A DNA stretch of 38,994 nt, from assembly GCA_021826505.1 (NCBI GenBank), contig JAKAZV010000009.1:1-38994 (forward strand), in the 5' to 3' direction. This document shows positions 4,591-33,951 of the stretch, piece by piece (the stretch's first letter is position 1; each line of letters begins with the position of its first letter). A program made the translations under genes and the position numbers. Below the pieces are notes generated by a model. The model saw nothing but the letters and a program-made list of their open reading frames with translations, was not told where the DNA came from and did no database searches. The stretch is from Acidobacteriota bacterium. Lineage in GTDB: Bacteria > Acidobacteriota > Terriglobia > Terriglobales > SCQP01.

Positions 4591-5517
4591 ATGTCGCTAC
4601 GACCGGTCAAACGCATCATCGAAGCCAAACCCACGCTGGAGGGCGCGGGCGTGCATCTGCGCCGCGCTTTTGGCTTTGGCAATACCGCCGATTTCGATCC
4701 GTTTCTGCTGCTGGATGATTTCCGCAACGATATTCCCGAGGATTATCTGGCGGGCTTTCCCTGGCATCCGCACCGCGGCATTGAGACCATTACCTACGTG
4801 CTGGCGGGCGAAGTCGAACACGGCGACAGCCTGGGCAACCGCGGCTCCATCACCGCCGGGGATGTGCAGTGGATGACGGCCGGACGCGGCATTATTCATC
4901 AGGAGATGCCCAAGGGCGATGCCGCCGGGCGCATGCATGGGTTTCAGCTCTGGGCCAACCTGCCGTCGGCGCTGAAAATGACGCCGCCGCGCTATCAGGA
5001 AATCCAGGCCGGCGATATTCCGGAGGTCGTGGAAGATGACGGCGCGCGGGTGCGCATCATCTGCGGCCGCTATGGCAGCCGCCGCGGATTGGTGGATGGC
5101 ATCGCCGCCGACCCCACATATCTGGATATTTCCATTCCACCCGGCCGCTCACGGGTGCTGCCGGTCGAGACTACCCGCCACGCTTTTGCTTATGTTTTCT
5201 CCGGCACGGGCAGCTTCTGCAATGCTTCCGGGCCGCTGGCCGTCCCGACCGAGCCGGTAGGCTGGGCCGAAACTCATCCGCCCGCCGCGGCGCAGGACCG
5301 TTCGCTGGTGCTGTTTGACCGCGGCGACGAGCTGGCTGTCAAGGCGGGAGAAGACGGCATGCGCTTTCTGCTGGTTTCGGGAAAACCGCTGGAAGAACCG
5401 GTGGCCTGGTACGGCCCCATTGTCATGAACACCCAGGAACAGCTCCGCCAGGCCTACCAAGAGCTGGAACAAGGCAAGTTTCTCGGCGAATCACGCTCAG
5501 GAATAAGCATCGCATAG
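4591..5517 (+). CDS. Pirin family protein
   Basis: DFDPFLLLDDFRNDIPEDYLAGFPWHPHRGIETITYVLAGEVEHGDSLGNRGSITAGDVQWMTAGRGIIHQEMP is characteristic of pirin. The last codons (SGISIA-stop) lie inside repeat R1. Confidence 0.93.
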   Translation: MSLRPVKRIIEAKPTLEGAGVHLRRAFGFGNTADFDPFLLLDDFRNDIPEDYLAGFPWHPHRGIETITYVLAGEVEHGDSLGNRGSITAGDVQWMTAGRGIIHQEMPKGDAAGRMHGFQLWANLPSALKMTPPRYQEIQAGDIPEVVEDDGARVRIICGRYGSRRGLVDGIAADPTYLDISIPPGRSRVLPVETTRHAFAYVFSGTGSFCNASGPLAVPTEPVGWAETHPPAAAQDRSLVLFDRGDELAVKAGEDGMRFLLVSGKPLEEPVAWYGPIVMNTQEQLRQAYQELEQGKFLGESRSGISIA

Positions 5518-5614
5518 CGGCGTTGAAACCCGCTCGGCAATCCTCATGTACAATCGCGCACACTCCGGTTGCCTCGCGGATTCCAGCCTTGCTCTGCTCG
5601 CTTCTCCCCGAGCG
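5494..5614 (+). repeat. Repeat family R, copy R1 (full, about 120 bp, imperfect terminal inverted repeats)
   Basis: CGCTCAGGAATAAGC ... GCTTCTCCCCGAGCG ends; core AAGCATCGCATAGC...CGCTCGGCAA.CCTC...CCGGTTGCCTCGCG...TTCC.GCCTTGC.CTGCTCGCTT, shared with R2 and R4. Confidence 0.85.
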
Positions 5615-5805
5615 CTCCGAATCATTCGAAGGCGGAGGGCCGGGACCTAGCAGCCGGCCAGTTCATGTGGCGGAGTTCCCGCCCCAAGGGCATAAGGATT
5701 TTGCACTGAATCCATTTATATCAATGTTAGCAATATTATCTAAAAAAGATAACTTCGCTAATTTCCGTATAAACGGCCGCGGCCCAATCCGCTCTCTGAT
5801 GCCCG

Positions 5806-8217
5806 TCAATACAGCAGAAAGCGCTGGCGCAGGCGCAGAAAACGGCGCTTGGCGGCCTGCCAACTGGCTTGAATGCGGCGCGGGTCTTCGCCGCGCTCAA
5901 TCTGGCGCACGATGTGCATGCTGCCAATTTCGGGCGCCATGGGCGCGGCATGCCAGAGGCGGGGATATAAATGGCGCAGGGCGCCGGCAAGCTCAATTCC
6001 CATTTCCAGCGGGTCGGCCTGGGTGCGATCAAGCAGCTCAATCTGAATGCCGGAACATAACCGATGGGCGTATTTGCTCGAACGCGGAGTGAAGCGGGTG
6101 GGCATAAAACGAATGCCGGGAATGGCGCGGGCGTTCAAATAGCGAGCTAATTCGCGGCCATGGATCCAGGGCGCGCCCAGAACTTCAAAGGGAGTATCGG
6201 TGCCGCGGCCCACGCTGACGTTGGTAAACTCAACCAGGGCCACGCCGGGATACAGGATGGTCTCTTCCAGGTTGCGCAGATTGGGCGAGGGGTTGACCCA
6301 GCCAAGGCCGGTTTCATCATAATAGTCGCCGCGCGCCCAGCCGCGCATGCGGATCACATGCAGATCGGCATGAATGTGATCCGCCACATTAAACATGCGG
6401 GCCAACTCGCCGACGGTCATGCCGTTGCGCACCGGCATGCCGGAAAAAAAACCGATAAAGCTGCGCCGCCGGGGCGACAACGGCGGACCTTCGACGGCGA
6501 TGCCATCCAGCGGGTCGGGACGGTCGAGGACAAAGACCGGAATATGCCGCCGGGCGGCGGCCTCGAGGGCATAGCCCAGCGTGGTTTCGTAGGTGTAAAA
6601 CCGCACGCCCACGTCCTGAATGTCGTAGACCAGGGCATTGATTTTGCGCAAGCCGGCGAGCGGCAGATGGCGGGAGGCGCGAGTGGCGCCATAAGCGGTA
6701 TAGACGGGAATGCCGGTCTTTTGATCCACCGTGTTGCCGATGTGAGTGGTGTTCAGATTGCCCAGCCAGCCCGATTCGGGACTGAAACCGCAGACCACAT
6801 GCACGCCGGCGGCCAGCATGACGTCGAGATTGCGGCGTCCTTTCCGATCCACGCCCGTCACATTGGTCACCAGACCCACGCGCAGGCCGCGCAAAGGGCG
6901 AAAATGCTCGCGTTCTAGCACGTCGAGTCCGGTGAGCACGCGGCCATTGCGCGCCAGCGGACGGCGCCAGGCATAGTTGACGGTGTTATATCCGGTGAGA
7001 TTCAGCGCGCCTTGCCGCAGCTCGCGCAATCGCGCGCGGCTCCAGCCGCGGGTGAAGCGCGCGGCGGCAAAAGAGGCGATCTCGGAGCGCAGCGCCAGCA
7101 GCGGCGGCCGCACATGGGGATAAACGGAATTCGAGAGAATGATGATGTAGGAATGCGTAAAGGGATCAATCCAGAGGGAAGTTCCGGTGTAGCCGGTGTG
7201 ACCGTAGGAGCCGACCGGCAGCAGTTCCCCCCGGTTGGTGGAAAACGGGGTATCGAGATCCCAGCCGAAGCCGCGGACCTGGGTTAAATTGTATGGGGTC
7301 TGGGGAGTGGTCATTTTGGCGACCACAAGCGGGCTGAGAATGCGGCGCGCGCCGGCGCAGGGGATGGCTCCGCCGTGCGGACAAACCTGTCCGTAGTTGA
7401 GCATCATCTGGGCGAAACGGGCGAGATCGCCGGCGGTGGAAAACATGCCGGCCGCGCCCGTGACCCCGCCCATGGCCTGCGCGACCGGATCCTGGACGAC
7501 ACCGCGCAGTCCATGCCAGGTGGGCGCAATGCGCGGCCGCCAGGCGCGAGGGGGAAGAAAGCGCGTGTGCCGCATGCCCAGCGGACGCCAGAAATGGCGT
7601 TCCACATAGCGATCGAGCGGTTCGCCGGTGAGACGGCGGACCAACTCGCCCAGCACAATGAAATTGACGTCGCTGTATTGCACCCGGCTGCCGGGCGGGA
7701 AATGCGGCCGCAGGCGGGTAATCTTTTCCAGCCCGAGACGATCGCCATGCCACCAGGGATGCATGCGCAGATCGGGTCGCAGACCCGATGTATGGGTGAG
7801 CAATTCGCGAATTGTGATCTGGCTTTTGCCGTCGCGCCCGAAGGCCGGCCAGTACTTGGCCACCGGATCATTCAGCCGGATTTTGCCTTGCTGGACCAGC
7901 CGCATGACGGCCGGCGCCGTGGCAACCACTTTGGTCAGCGAGGCGCAGTCAAAGATGGTGCGGACGGTCATGGATTCGCCCCGCGCCCGCTCGCCAAAAG
8001 CGCGATCATAAACGATGCGGCCGTTGTGGCCGATCAGCACAACCGCGCCGGGCAATTCATTTTGGGCGATGGCGCGGCGCACAATCGCGCCCAGGCCGCG
8101 CCAGGATGAATTAGAGGCGGCAGCGGGATGCGAAGGGCGCGTGGCAGCGGCAGAAATGATGCCCAATGCCAGGCTGAGCAGCAAAAACGGACGGCGATGA
8201 ATGAAGCCAAAGAGCAT
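5806..8217 (-). CDS. Fusion: class C beta-lactamase-like serine hydrolase + NamZ/DUF1343 exo-beta-N-acetylmuramidase domain
   Basis: N-half has the SxxK motif (CASLTK), YSDVNF and GHTGYTGTS. C-half GLDVLEREHFRPLRGLRVGLVTNVTGVDRKGRRNLDVMLAAGV...DIQDVGVRFYTYETTLGYALEAA...GMTVGELARMFN...GLGWVNPSPNLRNLEETILYPGVALVE is DUF1343/NamZ-like. ORF extends to 8253; the ATG at 8217 precedes a better signal peptide. Confidence 0.88.
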   Translation of the reverse strand: MLFGFIHRRPFLLLSLALGIISAAATRPSHPAAASNSSWRGLGAIVRRAIAQNELPGAVVLIGHNGRIVYDRAFGERARGESMTVRTIFDCASLTKVVATAPAVMRLVQQGKIRLNDPVAKYWPAFGRDGKSQITIRELLTHTSGLRPDLRMHPWWHGDRLGLEKITRLRPHFPPGSRVQYSDVNFIVLGELVRRLTGEPLDRYVERHFWRPLGMRHTRFLPPRAWRPRIAPTWHGLRGVVQDPVAQAMGGVTGAAGMFSTAGDLARFAQMMLNYGQVCPHGGAIPCAGARRILSPLVVAKMTTPQTPYNLTQVRGFGWDLDTPFSTNRGELLPVGSYGHTGYTGTSLWIDPFTHSYIIILSNSVYPHVRPPLLALRSEIASFAAARFTRGWSRARLRELRQGALNLTGYNTVNYAWRRPLARNGRVLTGLDVLEREHFRPLRGLRVGLVTNVTGVDRKGRRNLDVMLAAGVHVVCGFSPESGWLGNLNTTHIGNTVDQKTGIPVYTAYGATRASRHLPLAGLRKINALVYDIQDVGVRFYTYETTLGYALEAAARRHIPVFVLDRPDPLDGIAVEGPPLSPRRRSFIGFFSGMPVRNGMTVGELARMFNVADHIHADLHVIRMRGWARGDYYDETGLGWVNPSPNLRNLEETILYPGVALVEFTNVSVGRGTDTPFEVLGAPWIHGRELARYLNARAIPGIRFMPTRFTPRSSKYAHRLCSGIQIELLDRTQADPLEMGIELAGALRHLYPRLWHAAPMAPEIGSMHIVRQIERGEDPRRIQASWQAAKRRFLRLRQRFLLY

Positions 8218-8296
8218 GCGATCATGATCAGGAGTGCGGGCCGTTGGCGTCAAGCTGTTTCACTCCCCTTTCAATTACAAAAAAAACACCACCCTC

Positions 8297-9478
8297 ATGT
8301 CCCATTCATTTAATCTCGCCGCCATGCAGGCGGCACTGCGCGAGCAGCGCTGCGCGGGCTGGCTCTTTGCCGACCACCATCACCGCGACGCCATTGCCGG
8401 CCGGCTGCTGGGGCTGCCTCCCGGGCGCATGGCCACGCGGCGCTGGTTTTATCTGGTGCCGGCCGAGGGCGCGCCGCGCAAGCTCATCCATCGCATCGAA
8501 GCCGGACAACTGGAGGAACTGCCGGGCGAGGCCACGCTCTATTCCTCCTGGCGGGACATGGAATCCGGGCTGCGGCAAATGCTGACGGGATTGCGGCGCG
8601 TGGCCATGCAATATTCGCCGCGCAATGCCCTGCCGGCGCTCTCGGTGGTGGATGGCGGCATGCTGGAGCTGGTGCGGGAAACCGGGGCGGAGGTCATCAG
8701 CTCGGCGGATCTGGTGGCGCAACTCGAGGCGGTGTGGACGCCGGAGCAACTGGCATCGCACCGCCAGGCGGGCAAGGTGATTGACCGGGTGATCACGGCC
8801 GCTTTCCGCCGGATCCGCCAGGCGCTCGATGCGGAAGAAAAGCTAAGCGAATATGACTTGCAGCAGTGGATGATCGAGCGCATGGCGGCGGAGGGAGTGA
8901 CGGCGGAAGAGCCGCCCATCGTGGCCATCAATTCGCATGCCGGCGATCCGCATTATGCGCCGTCCGCCAAAGGCGCGGCCCGTTTTCAAAACGGCGACCT
9001 GGTACTGCTCGATGTATGGGGCAAATGCCAGGATGCGCGGGCGGTTTATTACGACGTCACCTGGATGGGCGCCGCCACGCGGCGGCCGCTGCTCAAGATC
9101 GCGCGGGCCTTTACCCGGGTACGGGCGGCACGCGACGCGGCTTTTGCCTTGATTCAAAACCGCATGCGGGCGGGCGAGGCGGCGCAGGGATGGGAAGCCG
9201 ACCGAGCGGCGCGGCAGGTGATGGAAGAGGCCGATGTAGCCGGGCATTTCACCCACCGCACCGGACATTCGATCGGGACCTCCGTACATGGCTACGGCCC
9301 CAACCTCGACAGCCTGGAAACCCATGACATTCGCCGCCTGCGCCCGGGACACGGTTTTTCGATCGAGCCGGGGCTCTATTACGCCAGCTTCGGCATCCGG
9401 CTGGAGGTAAATGTTTATTTGCATGAGCGGGATGCGGAAATTACCGGACCCATCCAGAACGAATTGATTACAATATAA
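8297..9478 (+). CDS. M24 family metallopeptidase (Xaa-Pro aminopeptidase-like)
   Basis: M24 motifs: GDLVLLDVWGKCQDARAVYYDVTWMGAA, HRTGHSIGTSVHGYGPNLDS, GHGFSIEPGLYYASFGIRLEVN. ORF opens at 8234; the internal ATG at 8297 (MSHSFNLAAMQAAL) is the more plausible start. Confidence 0.87.
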   Translation: MSHSFNLAAMQAALREQRCAGWLFADHHHRDAIAGRLLGLPPGRMATRRWFYLVPAEGAPRKLIHRIEAGQLEELPGEATLYSSWRDMESGLRQMLTGLRRVAMQYSPRNALPALSVVDGGMLELVRETGAEVISSADLVAQLEAVWTPEQLASHRQAGKVIDRVITAAFRRIRQALDAEEKLSEYDLQQWMIERMAAEGVTAEEPPIVAINSHAGDPHYAPSAKGAARFQNGDLVLLDVWGKCQDARAVYYDVTWMGAATRRPLLKIARAFTRVRAARDAAFALIQNRMRAGEAAQGWEADRAARQVMEEADVAGHFTHRTGHSIGTSVHGYGPNLDSLETHDIRRLRPGHGFSIEPGLYYASFGIRLEVNVYLHERDAEITGPIQNELITI

Positions 9479-9548
9479 TCTTTGGGCCGAGGGAACAGCG
9501 TCGCCTGGCGGCGATCGATTCCACCCGGCTGGAAATATTCCCGTTACC

Positions 9549-9965
9549 ATGTCCACCCGCACCGATGCCGCTGTTTTAGCGGCCGCAGCCAGCGCCGCGC
9601 GGCGCGCCAACCTGATCGCCGTCCTGAGCTGGCTGGCGCCCGGGGCGGGGTATTTCTGGCTGAAAAAATGGACCCGCGGCGCGCTCGTCTCCGCCGCCAT
9701 CATCGGCATGTTTTTGCTGGGGCTGGGACTGCAGGGGCAGATTTATCAATTTTCGCAACTGGGCGACCTGCTGAGCATACTGGGCTGGATCGGGGATGTC
9801 TGCGGCGGCGGGATGTATTTTTTAACGCAAATTCTGGGGGCGGGCGCGGGCAATGCCTATACCGTGTGGGGCAATTACGGAACAACGTTTCTGATCAGCG
9901 CCGGGCTGCTCAACCTGCTGGCCGCGACCGATGTGCGCGACATCGCGCTGGGGCGAAAAAAATAG
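9549..9965 (+). CDS. Small membrane protein, DUF6677-like
   Basis: LIAVLSWLAPGAGYFWLKKWTRGALVSAAIIGMFLLGLGLQG with multiple TM segments. Stop codon overlaps the start of repeat A1. Confidence 0.65.
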   Translation: MSTRTDAAVLAAAASAARRANLIAVLSWLAPGAGYFWLKKWTRGALVSAAIIGMFLLGLGLQGQIYQFSQLGDLLSILGWIGDVCGGGMYFLTQILGAGAGNAYTVWGNYGTTFLISAGLLNLLAATDVRDIALGRKK

Positions 9966-9981
9966 CGGCACAACCGCTTTT
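9964..9981 (+). terminator. Terminator-like hairpin formed by the left end of repeat A1
   Basis: AGCGGcacaaCCGCTTTTTTT directly at the stop codon of the DUF6677-like gene. Confidence 0.55.
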
Positions 9982-10206
9982 TTTAAGGCGAAACCATTGC
10001 GCAAAAACACCCCACCTGAAAATACGGAAGGGCGGTTCCTATCCGCCCCATCCTGCTTCGCAGGACAGGGGCCCCGGCCGGGATTTGCGAACTCTGTTGG
10101 AGACTGGAATTTTATTGCCGTTCATCAGCGCGGGACCAGACAGAAAACCCCGCGCTTCGGCCCACGATCCCGCATTTGCACCGCAATGCGACTCGGCCGT
10201 GAACGC
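9964..10206 (+). repeat. Repeat family A, copy A1 (full, with an extra internal hairpin insert)
   Basis: AGCGGCACAACCGCTTTTTTTAAGGCGAAAC...CGCGGGACCAGACAGAAAACCCCGCGCTTCGGCC...CGCATTTGCACCGCAATGCGACTCGGCCGTGAACGC, aligned by eye to A4. Confidence 0.85.
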
Positions 10207-10221
10207 TGATGGCCCACACTC

Positions 10222-10434
10222 ATGGCATACGCATTTCTCATCTGGCTGATCGCGCTCAAGTTTTCCCACTTCACGACCGTGATCCTGTTCGCGCTTTGCG
10301 CCTCGGTGGTCTTCGCCATTACGCTACGGGAAGAACCGCGCGAGCAGATCAAATACGGCGCCTTTTGTTTTGCCAGCTTTCTGGGCGCGACCATCGTGGT
10401 GGGCTGGATTATGTACTTTATTAATCCACGCTAA
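10222..10434 (+). CDS. Small hypothetical membrane protein (2 TM)
   Basis: 70 aa ORF with two hydrophobic helices and a mid-protein charged loop, in the same orientation as the DUF6677-like gene. Confidence 0.5.
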   Translation: MAYAFLIWLIALKFSHFTTVILFALCASVVFAITLREEPREQIKYGAFCFASFLGATIVVGWIMYFINPR

Positions 10435-10442
10435 GGATGCGG

Positions 10443-10560
10443 GTGAAGCGATAAGCGTCGCATAGCTGCGCTGTCAGGCGCTCAGACATCCTCACATACC
10501 CCCGAGTATGCCGCGGCGTCTGCACGTCTTCCGCCTGGCTCTGCCCGCTTTTCCCTTCAC
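10443..10560 (+). repeat. Repeat family R, copy R2 (full, diverged stems)
   Basis: GTGAAGCGATAAGC ... GCTTTTCCCTTCAC ends; shares AAGCGTCGCATAGCTGCG, GCGCTCAGACATCCTC, TTCCGCCTGGCTCTGCCCGCTT. Confidence 0.83.
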
Positions 10561-10578
10561 TTTAGATCTTGTCTCAAT

Positions 10579-10640
10579 CGGCATAGCCGCTTTTATTCTT
10601 ACGCACGAACATTTTCATGAAGTCCCGGCCGAAGCCGGCT
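10579..10640 (+). repeat. Repeat family A, copy A2 (left-end fragment)
   Basis: CGGCATAGCCGCTTTTATTCTTACGCACGAA...CCCGGCCGAAGCCGG; parallels the left part of A4 (GCGGCACAGCCGCTTTTTCTTCAGGCGAAAC...CCCGGCCGAAGCCGG). Confidence 0.55.
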
Positions 10641-10641
10641 A

Positions 10642-13539
10642 TTAGACGCCTGCGAACTGCTTCGCGCCCAGCACCGATTCCGTCAGCTCCAATAAGCGCG
10701 CCAAGCCAGCCGGCAGATCGGCGCCCAGATCAATCCGCAACACCCGCCGCTGATGAGCGGCCAGTGACTGGAAATCGCCGATTGCCTGGGCCTGGAACAG
10801 CGTGGCGAAATCGTACTGCTGGCCGGGGATGGCGACTGGACCGGCGGAGGCGGCGGCGCCGGCAGAGGTGAGCTGCAGGAAGACGCCGGTGTTGGGTCCG
10901 CCTTTGTGCAACTGGCCGGTGGAGTGCAAAAAGCGCGGGCCGAAGCCGAGCGTGGTCGCAACCTTCAGCCGGTCGCGCAGCAAAACGCGCAAAGCGCGTA
11001 ATTGGGATTGCAGGCGCGGGCTGGCTTCGGCATAGACCATGAAGGCAACGTAATCGCCCGGACGCACCGATTCGAGCAGTCTGGCCAGGGCCGCGGCGAC
11101 GGAAGCGGCCGGCTGGGCCGCGTAGGCGGCCAGGGCCGAAGGGGCCATGCCTTTTTCCTGATCGCGCGCGGTGGGCGCGGCATCAAGGCCGGCCTGGCGG
11201 GCGCCTTGCCGCAGGAAAGTTTGCAGTACACGGCTGGTATTGTCTTTGCTTTCCTGCACGTTGGGTTCATCAAATGGGTTGATGCCCAGGACCGCGCCGG
11301 CCACGGCGGTGGCAAATTCCCAGCGGTAATACTCCGCGCCCAAATCATAGGCATCGCGCAGCGCCAGCGTGGCCACCGGGGCGCCGGCCTTCATCTGAGC
11401 CGCGGCCCAGTCATCGCCGGCGCCGGGGATGGCTTCAGAAGCCAGGCGCAGGCGGATGAAGACGCGGTCCGATCCGTAATCGGAAACCAGGCCGGCCGGC
11501 TCGCCATCCACCGGAACCAGACCTTTGCCCAGCTTGCCAGTGCTTTCGGCGATGAGCTGCTCGGCCCAGGAACCAAAGCTGGCCAGCGCTGGACTGGCCA
11601 GCAGGGTGATTTTGTCGCGTCCAGCCAGGGCCCAGCCGCCGAGAAACGAGCCCAGTTGCACGCCGGGATTCTGATCGAGCCGCACATTCGCTCCGCAAGC
11701 CTTTTGCATGGCCTCGGCACGGTCTAATAACTGCGTCAGATCAATGCCCAGCCAGGCGGCGGGCACCAAGCCAAACAGCGAGAGCGCCGAATAGCGGCCG
11801 CCGATGTCGGACGGATTGGTAAAGACATGCCGGAAGCCATGGTCGCCGGCCAGTTTTTCGAGGCTGGTGCCGGGATCGGTGATGGCGGCAAAATGGCGGC
11901 CCGGCTTTTGTCCCGCCTTCAAGGCCGTGCCCACGCGGCCCCAGAAATAGGCAAACAGGCTGTTAGGCTCGATGGTGCCTCCGCTCTTGCTGGAAACCAG
12001 AAACAGCGTGGAGGTGAAATCAAGCTGGGCGGCGAGATGGGCGATGGCGGCGGGATCGGTGGTATCGAGCACATGCAGTTGCCGGTCCGAAGCCAGGCCC
12101 GCAGCCGCAAAAATTTCGCGATAGACTTCGGGCGCCAGGCTGCTGCCACCCATGCCCAAGAGCACTGCGGCGCGCAGGCCGTCTTTTTTGCAGCCGGCGA
12201 TGAAATCCTGGATTTCCAGCAGCCGCGGCCGCATGGCGCCGGCCAGATCGAGCCAGCCGAGGCGGTTGCGGATTTTTTCGCCTACTGCCGCGTCCGGACT
12301 CCAAAGAGCCGCATCTTTGGCCCAGATGCGCCGGCCGGCCTGGGCTTTTTCCATCTGGCTGAGCGCGTCCTGGAATGGCTTTTCGTTTTGCGCGGCCAGA
12401 GATTGCGCGGGCAGAGAATCGCCCGTGAGCTGAGCGATTTTGCCCTGCAGCGTTTCCAGCAGCTCATTGTAGGAGGCGGTAAAAAGGTCCACGCCCTCAT
12501 CCTGAAGCCCGCGCAGTTCAGCCTCAAAATCAATGCCGGCCTGAGCAAGGCCGGCGAGCACCGGTTCGGCCTGGGCGAGGGTGGGGCGCAGATTGTCGCC
12601 GGGATGGCCATGATCACGGAAGGCGGCAACGGTGACATCGGGCATGGTGTCCACAGTGTCGGGCGCGACCAGGGCGTCGGCATAGACGGTATCGGGGTAC
12701 TTGGGATTTTTGGTGCTGGTCGAAGCCCAGAGCAGACGCTGCGGCCGCGCACCGGCGGCGGCCAGACGCTGCCAGCGCGCGGAAGCCGTAACGGCGAGAA
12801 AATGCTGATACATGCGCTGGGAGTTGGCGATGCCGGATTTGCCTTCGAGCTGTTCCAGAGCGGCCGCGCGGCCGGGATTCTGTTTCGCCAGATCGGCCAG
12901 TTTGCGGTCCAGACGCGTATCCACCCGGCTGACAAACAGGCTGGCCACCGAGGCCAGGCGATGAATCGGCTGTCCCTGGGCCAGGCGCGTCTCGAGCGCG
13001 GTCAGATAGGCCTCAAGCACCGCCTGATAGGCGGCGAAGTCGAACATGAGGGTGATGTTGATGTTGATGCCGTCGGTCAGCAACTGCCGGATGGCGGGAA
13101 TGCACTCCGGCGTGGAGGGCACCTTGACCATGACATTGGGCCGGTTCAGCCGCCGCCAGATTTCCCGCGCCTGCGCCACCGTGGCGGCGGCGTCGCGGGC
13201 GAGATCGGGAAAGACCTCGATGCTGCAAAAGCCGTCGCGGCCCTGGCTGGCGTCATAGACGGGGCGGAACAGATCGCAGGCCGCGCCGATATCCTCGATT
13301 TCAAGCTCAAGGAACACCTGTCCCGGCGTATCGTCCAGATGACGGCGGATGGAGGCATCGTAATCGGCGCTGCCGGCAATGGCCTTGGCGAAGATGGTCG
13401 GGTTGGAGGTCAACCCGCGCAGGCCATCCTCATCAATCATGCGCTTGAGTTCGCCGCCGGAGATCAAAGAACGGCGGATGTTGTCGTACCAAAAGCTTTG
13501 ACCAAAGTCGAGCAACTGCCGCAAGGGATTTTGTGCCAT
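10642..13539 (-). CDS. Bifunctional transaldolase / glucose-6-phosphate isomerase
   Basis: N-terminal transaldolase: SFWYDNIRRSLISGGELKRMIDEDGLRGLTSNPTIFAKAI...VKVPSTPECIPAIRQLLTDGININITLMF. C-terminal PGI: LLGMGGSSLAPEVYREIF...FLVSSKSGGTIEPNSLFAYFW...INPFDEPNVQESKDNT. Confidence 0.93.
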   Translation of the reverse strand: MAQNPLRQLLDFGQSFWYDNIRRSLISGGELKRMIDEDGLRGLTSNPTIFAKAIAGSADYDASIRRHLDDTPGQVFLELEIEDIGAACDLFRPVYDASQGRDGFCSIEVFPDLARDAAATVAQAREIWRRLNRPNVMVKVPSTPECIPAIRQLLTDGININITLMFDFAAYQAVLEAYLTALETRLAQGQPIHRLASVASLFVSRVDTRLDRKLADLAKQNPGRAAALEQLEGKSGIANSQRMYQHFLAVTASARWQRLAAAGARPQRLLWASTSTKNPKYPDTVYADALVAPDTVDTMPDVTVAAFRDHGHPGDNLRPTLAQAEPVLAGLAQAGIDFEAELRGLQDEGVDLFTASYNELLETLQGKIAQLTGDSLPAQSLAAQNEKPFQDALSQMEKAQAGRRIWAKDAALWSPDAAVGEKIRNRLGWLDLAGAMRPRLLEIQDFIAGCKKDGLRAAVLLGMGGSSLAPEVYREIFAAAGLASDRQLHVLDTTDPAAIAHLAAQLDFTSTLFLVSSKSGGTIEPNSLFAYFWGRVGTALKAGQKPGRHFAAITDPGTSLEKLAGDHGFRHVFTNPSDIGGRYSALSLFGLVPAAWLGIDLTQLLDRAEAMQKACGANVRLDQNPGVQLGSFLGGWALAGRDKITLLASPALASFGSWAEQLIAESTGKLGKGLVPVDGEPAGLVSDYGSDRVFIRLRLASEAIPGAGDDWAAAQMKAGAPVATLALRDAYDLGAEYYRWEFATAVAGAVLGINPFDEPNVQESKDNTSRVLQTFLRQGARQAGLDAAPTARDQEKGMAPSALAAYAAQPAASVAAALARLLESVRPGDYVAFMVYAEASPRLQSQLRALRVLLRDRLKVATTLGFGPRFLHSTGQLHKGGPNTGVFLQLTSAGAAASAGPVAIPGQQYDFATLFQAQAIGDFQSLAAHQRRVLRIDLGADLPAGLARLLELTESVLGAKQFAGV

Positions 13540-13610
13540 GGATCTTTACCTCACCCCTTCTATTTTTGCATTAAATGCCCGCGGCGAAAGAGAATGAAAC
13601 CCGCACGCAA

Positions 13611-13689
13611 GGCGGCTGCGCCATTTTTAATCCTGGGCGCAGACAATTTCGCAATACCTTGCACTTTAACGCGATTCGGCCGTGCACGC
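13611..13689 (+). repeat. Repeat family A, copy A3 (internally deleted, about 79 bp)
   Basis: GGCGGCTGCGCCATTTTTAATCCTGGGCGCAGACAATTTCGCAA + CTTTAACGCGATTCGGCCGTGCACGC: both ends of family A without the central inverted repeat. Confidence 0.55.
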
Positions 13690-13706
13690 TGTCCGCAACT
13701 TCCACA

Positions 13707-14318
13707 TCAAAATGGCGGGTTCCAGACTAATTCCAATTCCAGATGAAAGCCCGGCAAAACCGGATCGGCATGCAATCCGGCAGGGAAATTAAGCGTTTCC
13801 GTGCCCCGCGGAGTAAAAATTTCCGCTTGCTTTGACGCCGGCAACAGCAGCCAGCCCAGACGCAGGCCACACTCCAGATACTCTTTCATTTTATTTCGCT
13901 GTTCGGAAACGACGTCGCTGGGTGATGCCACTTCAATGAGAAAATCCGGGCAAAGGGGAATGAATTTTTCTTTTTCGCGCCGAGTTAAGGCGGCGAGCCG
14001 GGAACGCTGGACCCAGGCCGCATCGGGCGCGCGCATCGCGCCGTTCGGGAGCCGAAAACCAGTGCTGGAATCAAACGCAATTCCAGTGGCATCAGCATCA
14101 GACCAAAGACTTAATTGCCGGAACACAGCTCCGCTCTGATACCCCGAATATCCGCCGGCGGGGGACATCACAATAATTTCTCCCTGCGCGGTGCGTTCGA
14201 TGCGCATCTCGCGATTGGACTGGCAAAAGCTAAAAAAAGCTTCTTCATCCCAATGCAAAACTCCGGCCGGCAAATGCAAAACCATTGGAGCATCGGGCAA
14301 AGGAATCGTGATTTGCAT
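13707..14318 (-). CDS. Uma2 family (DUF820) restriction endonuclease-like protein
   Basis: FFSFCQSNREMRIERTAQGEIIVMSPAGGYSG...PDAAWVQRSRL...CPDFLIEVASPSDVVSEQRNKMKEYLECGLRLGWLLLP is typical of Uma2. Confidence 0.88.
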   Translation of the reverse strand: MQITIPLPDAPMVLHLPAGVLHWDEEAFFSFCQSNREMRIERTAQGEIIVMSPAGGYSGYQSGAVFRQLSLWSDADATGIAFDSSTGFRLPNGAMRAPDAAWVQRSRLAALTRREKEKFIPLCPDFLIEVASPSDVVSEQRNKMKEYLECGLRLGWLLLPASKQAEIFTPRGTETLNFPAGLHADPVLPGFHLELELVWNPPF

Positions 14319-14408
14319 GGGAATGCCCGGAGAATTCCGTCTTTCTACTGCTTCTTCCTTGTCCCAAATCTAAAACTCTGACGCGACCTGCAGTCAGTTT
14401 AGCACTGC

Positions 14409-14864
14409 TCAGGAGCGGGAAAACTGGCGCTCGATAGCGAGGATCTTCTCCACCCGGCGGCGGTGGCGCTCGAGGCCGGAGAATCTGGCATGCAGCCAGA
14501 CGCGCAGGATTTCGGCCGCCAATTCGGGGCCGATGACGCGGGCGCCGAGGCAGAGCACGTTGCAGTCATCATCTTCCCTGCCCTGGTGGGCGCTGAAGGT
14601 GTCATGACACAAGCCGGCGCGGATGCCGGGAATTTTGTTAGCCGCGACGGTGGCGCCCACGCCACTGCCGCAAATCAGCACGCCGGCCTGGGCGCGGCCA
14701 TCGAGGATGGCCTGGCCGAGGGCGAGGGCGTAGTCGGGGTAATCCACGGGCGCCTCGGAATCGGTGCCCAGATCGAGAACCTCAGCGCGCTGCGCGGCCA
14801 ACTCGGTCATGAGCCGCGCCTTCAAAGGGAAGCCGCCATGGTCGCACGCAATGGCAATTTTCAT
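14409..14864 (-). CDS. rpiB: Ribose-5-phosphate isomerase B
   Basis: MKIAIACDHGGFPLKARLMTEL...DYPDYALALGQAILDGRAQAGVLICGSGVGATVAANKIPGIRAGLCHD. The longer ORF start at 14939 reads through repeat R3 and is rejected. Confidence 0.93.
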   Translation of the reverse strand: MKIAIACDHGGFPLKARLMTELAAQRAEVLDLGTDSEAPVDYPDYALALGQAILDGRAQAGVLICGSGVGATVAANKIPGIRAGLCHDTFSAHQGREDDDCNVLCLGARVIGPELAAEILRVWLHARFSGLERHRRRVEKILAIERQFSRS

Positions 14865-14872
14865 AAGGATCA

Positions 14873-14937
14873 CACTCAGAGATAAGCATCGTTCAACGGT
14901 GGAGGAGCGGGACCTAACAGGCAAGCCCGGCCTTGCC
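14873..14937 (+). repeat. Repeat family R, copy R3 (truncated; fused to another palindrome)
   Basis: CACTCAGAGATAAGCATCG matches the R left end, then diverges to GAGCGGGACCTAACAGGCAAGCCCGGCCTTGCC with hairpin GGCAAG/CTTGCC. Confidence 0.6.
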
Positions 14938-14970
14938 ACTCGATGCGGCGTTTAGGCTTAATGGTTAAGC

Positions 14971-15894
14971 TCATGAGCCATCACTTAACGATGTTGGCTT
15001 GATCGCCAGTTTCAGGTCATGCATGGCGATCTGCAAGTCTTTCCACGCCTCCTTTTTCTGGCGCGGATCGCGCAGCAGGTAGGCAGGGTGATAGGTGACC
15101 AGAACGCGGGCCGGCCAGCCGGAGATTTCGAGCGAATGAATGCGGCCGCGCAGCGCATTGAGCGGACCGCGGCCGGGCTGGGTTCCCAGCAGGGCATGCG
15201 CCGCGGTCGCGCCCAGGGCAATGATCAGTTCGGGCGCGAGCGCGCGCAATTGCCGGCGCAGAAAAGGCAGACAGGCGGCGATTTCGTCGGCTTCGGGAGT
15301 GCGATTGCCGGGCGGACGGCATTTCACCACATTACAGATGTAAACTTCGGAACGGGCCAGGCCCATGCCTTTTTCGATCATGTCCGTGAGCAACTGGCCG
15401 GCGCGGCCGACAAAGGGCAATCCCTGTTCGTCTTCATCCGCACCCGGGCCTTCACCGACGAAAACCAAACGGGGCTGGGCATTGCCATCGCCAAAAACGA
15501 TGTTATGACGGCCGAGCGAGTGCAGTTTGCAGCGGGTGCATTCGCCCAGATCGGAGCGGATGGCCGGAAGAGATTCCGCGGCCGGTCGCGGTTCTTGTCC
15601 CATCGTTCCCGGCATGGCGGGGATGGAAAATGAAAACGCATCGGCGGCCGCAATCCCCGCTGATGCCGGCGCGACGCGCCGTGGCGTCGGCGCTGACGGC
15701 GGTGAAGCAGGACGGGCATCGGGCCTGGGTGAGGCCGCGGGAGCGGCCGGACGGGCCGGAGCTGACTTGGCGGCGGTCACGGCGGCGGGTTGGGCGGGCG
15801 CGAAAAAGCGGGGGTTGAGGGTTGTGGATTCCAATCCCAGTTCGCGGGCAAAGCGCAGGCATTCGGCCAGCGACTGACGGATTTCTGTTTTCAT
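14971..15894 (-). CDS. Uracil-DNA glycosylase, family 4-like
   Basis: GEGPGADEDEQGLPFVGRAGQLLTDMI...VYICNVVKCRPPGNRTPEADEIAAC...VTYHPAYLLRDPRQKKEAWKDLQ; Cys residues consistent with an Fe-S cluster; Ala/Pro-rich N-terminus. Confidence 0.92.
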   Translation of the reverse strand: MKTEIRQSLAECLRFARELGLESTTLNPRFFAPAQPAAVTAAKSAPARPAAPAASPRPDARPASPPSAPTPRRVAPASAGIAAADAFSFSIPAMPGTMGQEPRPAAESLPAIRSDLGECTRCKLHSLGRHNIVFGDGNAQPRLVFVGEGPGADEDEQGLPFVGRAGQLLTDMIEKGMGLARSEVYICNVVKCRPPGNRTPEADEIAACLPFLRRQLRALAPELIIALGATAAHALLGTQPGRGPLNALRGRIHSLEISGWPARVLVTYHPAYLLRDPRQKKEAWKDLQIAMHDLKLAIKPTSLSDGS

Positions 15895-17198
15895 GCCGGA
15901 ACCCGCCGGGGTTCAGCCCGAGCCGGACCCGCCGATTTCTTCAGATCGCGGGCCAGATCCAGAATGTGATCCGCCAGCTCGCGTTTGGAGGCGCGTGGCA
16001 GATTATGACTCTGGTCCGGGCTTAGCCACACGGCCTGATTGTAATCGCTCTCAAGTCCGGCATCGGAGCGGCTGATGTCATTGAAGACGATGGCATCGGC
16101 ATGTTTGGCCATCAGCTTGGCGCGGGCGCGCTCAAGCGCGGCGGAGCCAGCGCCGGATTCGGCGGCAAAGCCGATGAGGAGCTGATGCTGTTTACGCTGG
16201 CCCAAGCCAGCCAGAATGTCAGGCGTAGGGGTCAAATCCAGCTGCCAGTCGCCGGGGGGTTTGGGCAGCTTGCCCGCATGCGGCTGGCGCGGCTGAAAAT
16301 CGGCGACCGCGGCCGCTAATATGGCCAGATCACAGGCGGCAAACGCCTGCCGGGCCGCAGCATCCATTTCACGGGCGCTGTGGACGGGAATGAAATCCAG
16401 TTGGCCGGCGGGCGCTGCGGGCGCGGGCAGCGCCACCGGGCCGCTGATCAGGACAACGCGCGCGCCGCGGGCCAGCGCCGCCGCCGCCAGGGCATACCCC
16501 ATGCGTCCGCTGGAGCGATTGCTGATGAAGCGCATGGAATCCAGGGCTTCCCGGGTGGGACCGGCGGTGATCAGCACGGTTTTTCCGGCCCAGTCACGGC
16601 GCGGCGCCAGCACCGCCAGGGCGGCGGCGGCGATGGCCGCGGGCGCGGCCAACCGGCCGGAGCCTTCCATGCCGCAGGCCAACTCGCCGGATTCCGGCTC
16701 GATCACCCGGACACCGCGGCGGCGCAGGAGCTCCAGATTCTCCCGGGTGGCCGGGTGTTCCCACATACGCGTATTCATGGCTGGCGCGAGCAGCACTGGC
16801 GCGGGGGTGGCCAGATAGACCGCCCCCAGCAGATCGTCGGCCCGGCCCGCGGCCATGCGCGCGATGCGGTCGGCAGTCGCGGGAGCGATGAGCAGAAGTT
16901 CGGTATTTTGCGCGAGCTGAATATGCTCGATCGAGCTTTCCCAAAGAATATCGGGATCCCGCGGGGCGGAACTTTCCGGCTGCGCGGGGAATAGATCGGT
17001 CAGAACTTGATATCCCGAGAGCGCTTCCAGCGTCAGGGGACGAATGAATTCCTGGGCCGCGCGGGTCATGAGCACGCGCGGGCGCGCGCCGGCGGCCTGG
17101 AGCAGACGCACAAGTTCGGCGGCTTTATAGGCGGCAATGCTGCCGCAAACTCCCAGCAGAATGCGCGGCCCCGCAGGAGATGGGGACGAAGGGTTCAT
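15891..17198 (-). CDS. coaBC: Bifunctional phosphopantothenoylcysteine decarboxylase / phosphopantothenate-cysteine ligase
   Basis: RILLGVCGSIAAYKAAELVR...APAMNTRMWEHPATRENL...KTVLITAGPTREALDSMRFISNRSSGRMGYALAAAAL. ATG at 17198 preferred. Confidence 0.93.
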   Translation of the reverse strand: MNPSSPSPAGPRILLGVCGSIAAYKAAELVRLLQAAGARPRVLMTRAAQEFIRPLTLEALSGYQVLTDLFPAQPESSAPRDPDILWESSIEHIQLAQNTELLLIAPATADRIARMAAGRADDLLGAVYLATPAPVLLAPAMNTRMWEHPATRENLELLRRRGVRVIEPESGELACGMEGSGRLAAPAAIAAAALAVLAPRRDWAGKTVLITAGPTREALDSMRFISNRSSGRMGYALAAAALARGARVVLISGPVALPAPAAPAGQLDFIPVHSAREMDAAARQAFAACDLAILAAAVADFQPRQPHAGKLPKPPGDWQLDLTPTPDILAGLGQRKQHQLLIGFAAESGAGSAALERARAKLMAKHADAIVFNDISRSDAGLESDYNQAVWLSPDQSHNLPRASKRELADHILDLARDLKKSAGPARAEPRRVPA

Positions 17199-17211
17199 GC
17201 CATTTGAAGCA

Positions 17212-17331
17212 CGCTCTGAGATCAGCATCGCATAGCCGCGTTAGGAACCGCTCGGCAAGCCTCCCGTACATCTATGCACGTTCCGGTTGCCTCGCGATTT
17301 CCGCCTTGCCCTGCTCGCTTCTCTCAGAGCG
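17212..17331 (+). repeat. Repeat family R, copy R4 (full)
   Basis: CGCTCTGAGATCAGC ... GCTTCTCTCAGAGCG ends (13 of 15 paired); core nearly identical to R1. Confidence 0.87.
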
Positions 17332-17368
17332 CTCAACCTCATTTACGATGAGCCGGGACAGAACAGAA

Positions 17369-17584
17369 TTATTCTTTTTCGCCGGGGTTTTTCGCATCGG
17401 CGCCGGGGCGGTAATACTCAATCGCACCCGCCATCACTTCCTGCTGGGCCACGCGGGTAGGTTTACGCGAGGCGCTATTCAGCACGGAGCGGGCGCCGCT
17501 TTGCAGTTTGCGGGCGCGGCGGGCCACCACATGAACAAATTCATAACGGCTGGGGATGCTTTCAATGCTTTTGTAGGCTTCCAT
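17369..17584 (-). CDS. rpoZ: DNA-directed RNA polymerase omega subunit
   Basis: 71 aa: SIPSRYEFVHVVARRARKLQSGARSV...KPTRVAQQEVMAGAIEYY, directly downstream of gmk on the minus strand. Confidence 0.88.
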   Translation of the reverse strand: MEAYKSIESIPSRYEFVHVVARRARKLQSGARSVLNSASRKPTRVAQQEVMAGAIEYYRPGADAKNPGEKE

Positions 17585-17606
17585 GCCAAAATTCCTTCCT
17601 CAATTA

Positions 17607-18404: not shown

Positions 18405-19291
18405 TCTAAATTTTGCACCTGTTCACGCAATTTTTCGAGTTCGGCCTTCATGCCGAGCCCGATTTCGGTGAGCCGCAAGGCGGGCGGGCTGGCGCTGGAA
18501 GTTTTGGCCAACAGGGTATTGGTCTCGCGCTGCAGTTCCTGCAAAAGAAATTCCAACGGCTTGCCGACTTCCCCTCCGGCAGCGAGCCGGGCCTGGAAAC
18601 GATCCAGATGGGCCTCGAGCCGGGTTAATTCTTCACTGATATCGGCGCGCTCGGCCAGCAGCGCGGCTTCCTGAGCCAGGCGTTCGGAGGGAATCGCATC
18701 GGCCAGCAGGTCCGCAAGCCGGCGGCGCAGACGCTCGTGCAGGGCGCTGACGATTTCAGGCTGACAACGGGAAATTTCCGCGACGGCGGCGCGCAAATTC
18801 TGAATGCGGGCCAGCAGGTCGCCAGCCAAAGCCGCGCCTTCGCCGCGGCGGAAGTCTTCCAACCGCCGCAAGGCTTCTTCCAGCGCGGCCGCGACGGCAG
18901 CCGTAACGGCGGATTCTTCGGGCTGAGAGCCGGCGGCCGAAAGCACGCCGGGCAGGCGCAGCCATTCATAAATATTTCCCGCTTCGCCGGGCGCGAGAAC
19001 CTGGATTTCCCGGCGCAATTCCGATAAAGCCGCCAGATAGGCGCGAACCCGGCCGCGATCGAGGCCATCGGCGGCGGGCTCTTCGGCTTCAAGCCAGAGA
19101 TCCACATGACCGCGGCGCAGGGCGGCGCGCAGGCGTTTTTCAATTTCCGGGCCCTGGGCTTCCAAGCCCGGCGCCAGCCGAAGCTGCAGATCAAGAAACC
19201 GGTGATTGAAGGTTTTGATGCGCAGCCGGAGACGCATGTCCCGGGCTTCGGCGCGCGCCTCCGCATAGCCTGTCATCGAATGAATCGTCAT
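18401..19291 (-). CDS. YicC family endoribonuclease-like protein
   Basis: MTIHSMTGYAEARAEA...IKTFNHRFLDLQLRL...GKPLEFLLQELQRETNTLLAKTSS. ATG at 19291 preferred. Confidence 0.9.
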   Translation of the reverse strand: MTIHSMTGYAEARAEARDMRLRLRIKTFNHRFLDLQLRLAPGLEAQGPEIEKRLRAALRRGHVDLWLEAEEPAADGLDRGRVRAYLAALSELRREIQVLAPGEAGNIYEWLRLPGVLSAAGSQPEESAVTAAVAAALEEALRRLEDFRRGEGAALAGDLLARIQNLRAAVAEISRCQPEIVSALHERLRRRLADLLADAIPSERLAQEAALLAERADISEELTRLEAHLDRFQARLAAGGEVGKPLEFLLQELQRETNTLLAKTSSASPPALRLTEIGLGMKAELEKLREQVQNLE

Positions 19292-19293
19292 AG

Positions 19294-19366
19294 CACGCCA
19301 AGAGACAAGCATCGCATAGCTCAACTCACAGCCGCCCGGATTTTCCCGTACCTTCATACATCCAGG
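19294..19366 (+). repeat. Repeat family R, copy R5 (left-end fragment)
   Basis: CACGCCAAGAGACAAGCATCGCATAGC followed by CCGCCCGGATTTTCCCGTACCTTCATACATCC, alignable to the left half of R4; ends at the stop codon of the ABC exporter gene. Confidence 0.65.
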
Positions 19367-24564: not shown

Positions 24565-27423
24565 TCATTTTTTTTCAATGGGATGGGAACCAACGCGGTA
24601 TGAGGTATAGAGGCGTGAATGGGACCAGCTTTCGACCCGAATCGTATCACCCGAGGGGGAGAAAGTCAACGAACGGCCGGTGAGGAATCCGAGTTCGGCA
24701 TCAAAAATGCTCGGGCTTCCGCCGCTTAATGTGATCAGATTATGAACTGGGTCATAGATCACTTTCGCTGCCTGTCCCCGCCGGCCCACCGAACTCATAT
24801 GCACACCGCCGGTGGCGACCACCCGATTGAGCCGCAACGAAGGCGTGGCCGGGGTATGGCCAGCATTGGGCTGCGGGCTAAAAAAGACCGTCAATACCGG
24901 AGCGGTGAGCCGGTTCGGGCCCTGCGTGAGAAGCACATGGCCCTGATAGCGGGCCCAGGCCTGACGCTGCGCGAAATGCAGGCTTTGGGCGCGAATCAAG
25001 AGGGTGCGGGCCGCGGTTACGGCAGGTTTGCCGGCGTGGGCGGTTGCGGTTGATTTCGCCCGCGGCGCGGGAACCTGAAACACGCTGGTGACCTCGCCGC
25101 CGGCATCGAGTGTGGCCTGGCCGCGATCAAGGATGATACGGTTGGCGGCGATCAAATCCGGACCTTGCCACAAGCGCACCCCCCCGGCAAATAATACCCA
25201 TCCCGCGGAGGCATGAAGCTGCATGCCGTGCGCGGTGAGATACACCCGGCGGGAGGTCGGCATCGCGGAGAGCGGCACAGCCGCTTTTTCTTCAGGCGAA
25301 ACGATATCGCAAATGCCCGGCCGAAGCCGGGGTTTCCGAACCTTGATGGAAGCTAGAATTCCATTTTCGTTTATAGGCGCGGGACCTGGCAGGAAACCCC
25401 GCACTTCGGCCTGTGATCTCGCATTTGTACTACAATGCGATTCGACCGTGAACGCATCTGGGGCATTGAAAGAATCGGCGGAACCGGGCAGATAAATCAG
25501 ACTTACGGGCTGAGAGGCGAGGGTTAATCGGCTTTGCGGCTGAATCTTCAGCCGCGCGGTGCGGAGCCGCAGTTGCGGCGTGTGGAGATGGATTTGACCG
25601 CGAGTATAGCGGCTGGAGGGATCGGCCCAGATGCGCACCCAATCCCCCGCCGCGGCCTGGCTGAGGCCATCGGCCAGGATGATTTGCCGGTCCGCGGCGC
25701 CGGGCGCCGGAGACGCAGACGGAGCAGCCGCGGAAAAACTTTCCGACAGGCGCACATGCCCGGTTTCACGCCAGCGGCCCAGTTGGCCGTTGGCCAGGAA
25801 ATGAAGATGCAAGAGGCCGGCTTGATCGCGCCGCCATTGAACCACGCGGGAATTTTTGAGCTTCGATCCCGGAGCGGGCACCGTTGTCCGGGTCAGCAAA
25901 ATGACCTGATGGGCATGGAGCCACCGCGGCCGTCCACCGGAATAAAAACCCATGCGCACGGTGTGCGCATGGGCGCGGGCGGGCGGGCGGCCCTGGGCAT
26001 GCCAGCGGAGATGGGCCTGATGAGCCCGCAATTGGCGAAGATGCAATCGGACCGCGGAGGCTGAAGCGGCCGCGGCATTGGCGGGGGAGAGCGCAAAATT
26101 CAAGACCAGCCGGGGCGCCTGTAAACGCCAATGAACCCCATGCCCGGGCGCGGACAACAGCGGCAGGGTCATATTCCGCAGATTCCAGGCCGAAGGCTGG
26201 CGCGGGGTGGAAACGGCGGTGGATCTGGATTTCAGCGCCGGACCGGCCTGGGTTTCCGATAATTGAACCGCGCCCAGCGCACGGGCTTGCCGGAGTTGAT
26301 TCCCGGCGGCAAACTGGAGCCATAACCGGCGAGCAAGCAGAGAACCTTGCTGGCCCGCCGCCCGATGCCGCAATCGAACCGCGCCCCGCAACAACGCATG
26401 GGTAACCACCAGCGACTGGCGGGGCAGCGCGGCGGAGTGGCGCAAACGCGCCAGCATAGCAGGAGCAGAACCGGCAGAGCCAATGCGAGACTGCCGCATA
26501 GGGGCCGGCGCGGGCGGCGCATCCAGCCAGACAGTGCCCTGCCGGGCTTGCCAGGAATACGAATTCCCAACTTGCTGCAGCGCGCCACGTAGGCCTGCCG
26601 GAGCCAGAATCCGGCGTACGGTATAGTCGGAGCGCAGATATAAAGTCAGTTGAGCCGCCCGCAGCCAGAGCGTTTTTTGCCGGATCAGCACCGGCTGCCC
26701 CGGCCCGCCCTGCAACTGGATGGTGGCGCGCGCGCGATCGAGAATAGCCCTGGCGGCGCGCACATGCCAGGCCGGATGACCGGGCGATTGCCAGCGCAGC
26801 CGCACCTGGCCGCCCAGGCGCAACTCGACCGGATGCGAGGTCCAATCCGCGCTTCCGGCCTGGCCCTGAGCCCGCAAATAACGAAAGGTCAGACCGCCGC
26901 GCATCTGCCCGATGCCCAGCTTGGTATTGAACGCGAGATTATGCGCCTCGATATGAATGGGGTTGCCATGTTCGGCGGCGGGGGGCTGGCCGAAGGGCCG
27001 GGGCGGGCCGAGTTGGCCGCCGACATCCATGCGCACCAGGCCTTGCGTGCTCACCTGGCCGGTCGCCGGCTGATATTGCAGGCGCTGGCAATAGATTTGA
27101 TCGGCGCGCCGGCCGTTGGACTGGAAGATCTGCAGCGTGACCTGGCGCAGAATGGCGGCATGGCCGCCGGCCCGCATCTGGACCGCGGTTCCGGCGCGCA
27201 GGCGGAACAGAGTGCGATTACCCAGGGAACGCGACAGTTCAAAGCCATGCGCGCTTTCGCGGATGCTCAGCCGTAACCGGGGCACGGGCGGGTTGCGGGT
27301 GGCATGGGCGCGCTGATACCAATAGATGCCCAGAACGAGGCCGGCCGCGGCCAGCAGCCCCAGACTGAGGGCTTGCCGCGCCCGGAGGCGCCATCCCGGG
27401 TTCCACTTGATTCGCCGTATCAC
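24565..27423 (-). CDS. Large LptC-like + OstA/LptA-like fusion protein, interrupted in frame by repeat A4
   Basis: 952 aa ORF upstream of lptB/rpoN. N-terminal TM anchor followed by beta-rich repeats (LptC-like). The C-terminal part ([57 protein letters not shown]...) is OstA-like. Residues [10 protein letters not shown]...EEKAAVPL derive from a repeat. Confidence 0.75.
25271..25455 (+). repeat. Repeat family A, copy A4 (full, inside the lptC/A ORF)
   Basis: AGCGGCACAGCCGCTTTTTC...GGCCGAAGCCGGGGTTTCC...GGAAACCCCGCACTTCGGCC...CGCATTTGTACTACAATGCGATTCGACCGTGAACGC; long internal inverted repeat 25319-25337 / 25392-25411. Confidence 0.87.
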
Positions 27424-33798: not shown

Positions 33799-33951
33799 TT
33801 TTAGTGTCCTAGTGGCACTAAACCGAGTTAAGCCTTTTATTTTCATTACTTTATTTAGTGCCACTCAAGAATATGTTAGTGGCACTAGATTTTTATAAAC
33901 CTTTTATTTTCAATTATTTAAATGTGGCACTAAAAATACGCTTTAGTGTCC
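33799..33951. repeat. AT-rich cluster of TTTAGTGNCC / AGTGGCACTAAA motifs
   Basis: Six related motifs: tttagtgtcc, agtggcactaaa, tttagtgccact, ttagtggcacta, tgtggcactaaa, tttagtgtcc; plus a direct repeat aagccttttattttca / aaaccttttattttca. Confidence 0.75.

Follow-up and report, generated by a model that had tools for sequence, protein, structure and literature searches.

R, a gene-less mobile DNA element with a fold under selection in one family of Acidobacteriota

R is shown here to be a mobile, gene-less, and non-autonomous DNA element of about 234 bp with a fold under selection. Its copies were analyzed in a 38,994-nucleotide stretch of an Acidobacteriota contig (the window), in the remainder of the same draft genome, and in related genomes. 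The initial annotation of the window had described a dispersed structured unit of about 120 bp; this unit makes up just the left half, and the mobile element as a whole is 234 bp long and also has a separate structured right-end module. R is probably recognized by its shape, by an enzyme encoded apart from it.

Copies of R in the Window and in Related Genomes

A covariance model of the left part of R was trained on 21 genome copies, including three from the window, R1, R2, and R4. All three are left (hairpin) modules on the plus strand. R1 (5489..5622; cmsearch 128.9 bits, E = 1.2e-31; fold z −3.0) is followed on its 3′ side, to about 5660, by a degraded part of the right module. R2 (10437..10568; 111.3 bits, E = 4e-27) is divergent, has inner and apical stems of its own, and is missing the right module. 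In R4 (17207..17339; 130.6 bits, E = 4e-32), the right module is decayed. The scores uphold the initial placement of these copies. The blocks common to them are confirmed, and their outer arms are, as described there, unlike and yet still complementary.

The plus strand of the window also contains a deletion derivative of R (14868..14985), identified by direct reading, in which the left end is joined at GCATCG to the right module. The 29-nt block AGCACGCCAAGAGACAAGCATCGCATAGC at 19291..19360 (plus strand; 83% over 29 nt) stands alone as a possible, doubtful remnant; it was dropped as an R copy, with a covariance model score of just 6.3 bits. A feature of another kind is an AT-rich 44-bp direct repeat, TAGTGGCACTA...TTTTATTTTCA, present at 33810-33920 in two copies 67 bp apart and contrasting with the otherwise GC-rich contig.

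With R4 alone as the query, blastn yields 43 matches in the 2.75-Mb draft of the own genome (G000). The covariance model yields 76 at E ≤ 0.1, or about 70 loci after subtraction of copies read on both strands. In genomes of the same family, the model has 70 matches in the related MAG DBS2-1.bin132 (G002), 20 in G010, 19 in the congener G001, 15 in G003, 13 in G008, 12 in G007, and 9 in G006, and zero in G004. The element is thus dispersed, as first claimed, by the Infernal search as well. Contigs of MAGs from these bacteria frequently break within R, which thereby affects assembly.

Beyond the family, the same search of 17 genomes from the next family gave zero matches save one weak one, and among 250 genomes across the class, under strict filters, the own genome alone has an R match. 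A degenerate R pattern has zero matches in 84,980 GTDB genomes, and the exact right end occurs there in Acidobacteria MAG DBS2-1.bin132 only; near relatives of the window genome are perhaps absent from this set. In viral contigs, the right-end pattern was not found, and four short matches to the left block each occur without the remainder of R. R thus has almost no matches beyond one bacterial family. The comparison with Rfam proposed along with the initial annotation likewise gives no matching family, there being zero matches for the whole window at gathering thresholds and zero for the elements of four loci at a relaxed E ≤ 5.

Selection on the Fold of the Left Hairpin

R1, R2, and R4 each fold better than their own shuffles, with z values from −2.8 to −3.3, and for a consensus-like copy located elsewhere z falls to between −7 and −9. 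For the analysis of covariation, 84 distinct copies from ten genomes were aligned with MAFFT, blind to structure. All 8,385 column pairs were scored by a G statistic with average-product correction, against a null that keeps the tree and the substitutions; this is a custom test resembling R-scape, not R-scape itself. Five of the 8,385 pairs covary significantly at E ≤ 0.05. All five are Watson-Crick pairs inside the predicted long hairpin, and they are paired in 90–98% of copies. The initial reading of compensatory change as the mark of a selected nucleic-acid fold is thus borne out by a tree-based test over 84 copies.

The changes are distributed unevenly over the tree. On internal branches, we observed 36.6 two-sided pair changes, 33 of them pair-keeping, versus 3.5 expected, together with 15 single breaks. 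On terminal branches, there are 31 two-sided changes versus 7.2 expected (27 pair-preserving versus about 7), together with 83 single breaks. Since compensations dominate the internal branches and breaks the terminal ones, the spreading lineage keeps the fold and individual copies decay. This points to a fold that is selected during mobility, at the DNA level, with selection acting on the lineage that moves and not on every single copy.

The Complete Element and Its Target Sites

Copies of R in the own genome frequently run past the 120-bp unit. The full unit can be read from young, near-identical copies in G002, in which it spans 234 bp from GATGCTGGGCG to GGCCGCCGCT and contains no ORF. A long imperfect hairpin on the left is followed by a three-way-junction module ending in CGCT. 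These sharp ends are identical in 31 young G002 copies at unrelated sites, and most G002 copies keep an intact left end. The ends of the G002 copies, GATGCTGGG.. and ..GCCGCCGCT, are not the inverted repeats that mark a MITE. A scan of the flanks of the 31 young copies for direct repeats, inverted repeats, and mutual information found nothing, and no target duplication is seen, in a short-read MAG of about 3.5x coverage in which some flank pairs could be misjoined.

The left flank of G002 copies carries zero sequence information. Position +5 of the right flank is G in 43 of 44 cases, and +6 is usually A or C. Own-genome right flanks, read likewise, have G at +5 in 10 of 11 copies. The deletion derivative in the window ends in ..CACT followed by TAAC-GA, and fits the same NNNN-G rule.

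Longer forms of R, of 264–355 bp, contain one to four mini-hairpins of 30 nt inserted at three fixed places, often with CUUCGG-type loops. In 248 kb of G002 sequence, 37 mini-hairpins fall within R, close to it, or at the ends of contigs, versus 4 elsewhere; their appearance is that of small mobile repeats inside a bigger one. Sequences of this kind, about 30 nt long (AGCAAAACC-TKCGG-TTTTGCT and relatives), were noted, once in tandem, at L104, L105, L122, L126, and L131 of G002 and at L010-L017 of the own genome.

Each right end inspected in G002 was part of an R copy, a broken copy, or a right-end fragment, and none came from a transposase-bearing element that could be an autonomous parent of R. 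Separately, fragments consisting of the right end only, the last ~35 nt of R followed by NNNNG, as if left-truncated, were seen at L128, L250, L254, L255, and L256 of this genome.

By simple ORF-based gene calls, 14 of 17 full G002 copies are located between called genes, versus 15% of random positions, and the orientations of the surrounding genes are mixed and of every kind. This distribution agrees with harmful insertions having been lost and gives no hint of a role as a terminator or 3′ UTR element. Two own-genome copies, at L003 near 1403-1498 and at L017 near 1490, directly adjoin tRNA genes.

Family Q and a Common Right-End Module

Comparison of the window with its relatives revealed a second gene-less family, Q, with a length of about 185–243 bp and dozens of matches in G007 (loci L137-L145). 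A complete copy in the window, Q1 (9965..10207, plus strand), has the R-like architecture of the right-end module and was identified from the G007 matches and by comparison of copies. Another, Q2 (25272..25456, plus strand), has 78% identity to Q1 over 130 nt (E = 8e-27). A probable fragment of a Q left half, CGGCATAGCCGCTTTT..GTCCCGGCCGAAGCCGGC, lies immediately 3′ of R2 (10578..10650, plus strand), as judged by an unscored visual likeness to the Q left end. In L142 near 200-450, one Q copy is found inside another, with no clear duplication of target bases.

The left half of Q is unrelated to that of R. The right module shares with R the blocks GGGACC..CAGG..AACCCC and GACTCG and the end CGCT, and the NNNNG rule for the right flank holds in most Q copies; in Q1, CGCT is followed by GATG-GC. 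A right module of yet another type, S, occurs in the own genome (L045:2392-2492), with different P0 and P3 sequences and the end GTCGCA.

The right modules of R, Q, and S have one predicted three-way junction, with P0 closing P1 and P2/P3, formed by several independent sequences. The bases of P0, P2, and P3 differ among the three despite the common fold: P2, for instance, reads CCCAC/GTGGG in R, and Q and S both have CGGCC/GGCCG. The loop GGGACCURRCAGGNAACCCC is conserved. A joint model of the R and Q right modules was dropped, as MAFFT set P2 out of register. Because R and Q have a common right-end architecture and target rule, we infer that one kind of machinery mobilizes both and reads shape more than sequence; the common architecture is the best clue to such a reading of shape.

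Insertion Polymorphism

The congener G001 is 85–90% identical to the window and syntenic with it over 8606-18500. At the syntenic places in G001, Q1, R2, and the deletion derivative are all absent, and the last is a clean insertion relative to G001. The syntenic place of R4 has no R copy and is occupied by unrelated sequence instead. The sites of two more own-genome copies, in L004 and L005, are also empty in G001. At three sites (the deletion derivative, L004, and L005), the empty site appears to lack 4 nt that the joined flanks contain, and at the Q1 site there is no clear 4-nt excess. Either an eroded 4-bp duplication or coupling through 4 nt could account for this excess; simple target duplication is disfavored by the young G002 copies.

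Mobilization of R

We propose that gene-less R is moved in trans via its folded ends in single-stranded DNA, with no lasting duplication. This full proposal appears to us rather probable, and recognition of single-stranded DNA in trans, taken by itself, about as probable as its opposite. A protein encoded elsewhere in the genome would bind the folded ends of R while the DNA is single-stranded, such as at a replication fork. The right end would then be joined to a target NNNN-G-(A/C), with no target duplication that lasts. Most inserted copies would be without host function and would decay, and copies would be found between genes as a result of the loss of insertions into genes. Speaking against the proposal, the searches yielded no mobilizing enzyme, Y1 as the enzyme class nearest to single-stranded DNA transposition is missing from G000 and G007, and the 4-nt excess at three sites would fit a decayed duplication.

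One alternative, which we regard as unlikely, would place R among the REP/REPIN-type elements, with a RAYT, the proposed mover of Pseudomonas REPINs, or a class 3 TnpA-Y1 HUH protein as its mobilizing enzyme. Long hairpins, an intergenic location, and the lack of terminal inverted repeats and target duplications agree with it. Class 3 Y1 genes flanked by atypical structures, in up to about 600 copies, are known from the same phylum (PMC6006769), and G002, which has the youngest copies, contains one RAYT-like gene. However, this gene scores 64.5 bits against NCBIfam REP_Tyr_transpos, below the cut-off of 80, and is class-2-like (YVERNP) rather than class 3. No Y1 transposase was found in G000, G001, G005, or G007 even at E ≤ 10, in drafts from which a gene could be missed (G000 is 89.6% complete, G007 96%, and the carrier drafts 90–97%). 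G007 lacks a Y1 match although it carries 12 R matches and Q copies by the dozen. Neither R nor the shared right module occurs beside the Y1 loci examined in carrier and neighboring genomes, and the covariance model search of these loci gave a best chance match of 11.6 bits. The class 3 motif NHVH ... YV[VI]xEQ is not seen in the Y1 loci examined; the PF01797 profile may miss class 3. R also has no GTAG foot, and its units are 5–10 times longer than REPs. As for a CnGA foot, there is no C at the required place in the G002 left flanks, and CGGA precedes P1 in R and not in Q. The REP/RAYT option of the initial annotation thus loses ground, with no Y1 in G000 or G007 and with the single Y1 gene of G002 not flanked by R.

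It is improbable that R is a structured non-coding RNA or an RNA-mediated retroelement, that is, a folded transcript bound by a protein and copied back into DNA. The right module does resemble a natural RNA fold in its three-way junction and conserved loop, the mini-hairpins often have CUUCGG-type loops, and the right-end-only fragments of G002 are what 5′ truncation would give. Against this, no reverse transcriptase domain was found in G000, G002, or G006, most G002 copies are left-intact, there is no bias in gene orientation, and the reverse strand is predicted to be more stable in 76 of 84 copies. Broken cells at paired sites are G-U in 26 cases versus A-C in 29; there is no G-U excess and therefore no support for an RNA read from either strand. 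Equal counts are also expected from neutral decay of dead copies, and an RNA stage in active copies is compatible with them. Between the two options initially offered, RNA or single-stranded DNA, the latter stands, as a mobile element of the single-stranded DNA type, and the former is left without support, as there is no G-U excess, copies occur in every gene orientation, and individual copies decay.

A site-specific recombinase of the Tn916-like kind, forming circles joined through a 4-nt coupling sequence and integrating at NNNN-GM, is quite improbable as well. It would account for a right flank, CGCT-NNNN-G(A/C), that mirrors the elements' own left ends, GA in R and GC in Q, for left and right 4-mers that are unrelated in G002, and for the 4-nt excess at three sites. 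However, the 4-mers at the three empty sites are more alike than coupling predicts, and the Q1 site is without a clear excess.

The explanation without any fold selection is very improbable. In it, the complementary arms of quasi-palindromes in spacers duplicated passively would be kept alike by template switching or hairpin repair. Repair makes two-sided changes such as the 27 pair-preserving ones on terminal branches, but it would erase mismatches, whereas many unpaired internal-loop positions of the hairpin are conserved in 90% or more of the 84 copies, which argues against mere hairpin repair. Repair also leaves unexplained the recurrence of sharp ends at sites that are unrelated, the +5 G, and the empty sites.

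Searches for other enzyme classes included IS110 (DEDD transposase), which was not found in G000, G002, G006, or G007. Y1, reverse transcriptase, and IS110 were rejected as the partner of R, as none of these domains is common to the carrier genomes searched.

The spread of gene-less short palindromic repeats in bacteria is an open question on which mobile, fold-selected R bears. It offers young copies, exact ends, a target rule, and empty sites, and its fold selection is separable from host function. It also gives a concrete search target, a protein common to all carrier genomes, and allows recognition of DNA shape to be tested against recognition of RNA shape.

Comparison with Known Systems

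The closest described counterparts are the "atypical secondary structures" of class 3 TnpA-Y1 (HUH) genes in Acidobacteria and Planctomycetes, including Solibacter (Quentin et al., 2018, PMC6006769). A CnGA foot and linkage to a Y1 gene are described for them (PMC6006769). Like them, R is high-copy folded DNA in the same phylum, differs from canonical REPs, and has no surrounding IS. Unlike them, it has no linked Y1 gene, with none in G000 or G007, a comparison made by description only, so that identity is possible. A link to class 3 TnpA-Y1 is the main known circumstance that could make R a member of a described kind.

REPs are short units of 20–40 nt with a GTAG/GTGG head that flank a RAYT (PMC3116915, PMC2817692). 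R resembles REPINs and BIMEs in being non-autonomous, intergenic, and hairpin-forming, with compensatory changes in the palindrome. It differs in its two unlike structured ends, its length of 234 bp, and the lack of a RAYT in the own genome. The left ends of R and Q are GATGC/GATCAC or GCGGC and the right end is CGCT, and the GTAG/GTGG head of REPs is lacking.

Elements of the ERIC, NEMIS, and RUP type are reviewed in PMC10969869. R belongs to their size class and is similarly a long imperfect palindrome, intergenic, and, as for ERIC, without a known enzyme of its own. The ERIC, NEMIS, and RUP families have terminal inverted repeats and short target duplications, whereas young R copies have neither and end on the right in a three-way junction. 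We know of no enzyme for ERIC-like repeats. Cyanobacterial small dispersed repeats are small hairpin units nested inside larger repeats, as are the 30-nt mini-hairpins of R; unlike these repeats, the mini-hairpins are found at three fixed places in R and are rare elsewhere.

Tentatively, R, Q, and S, which share only their architecture, may represent an undescribed superfamily of mobile DNA, a possibility to which we give less weight than to the mode of movement proposed above. Its members would lack terminal repeats and be recognized by the shape of their unlike ends, one folded as a long hairpin and the other as a three-way junction. They would insert at NNNN-G(A/C) sites without lasting duplication, through an enzyme whose class has so far not been linked to elements of this type. 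R itself belongs with the small non-autonomous folded mobile DNA of the REPIN, ERIC, and SDR kinds, and is unusual among them in having two unlike folded ends.
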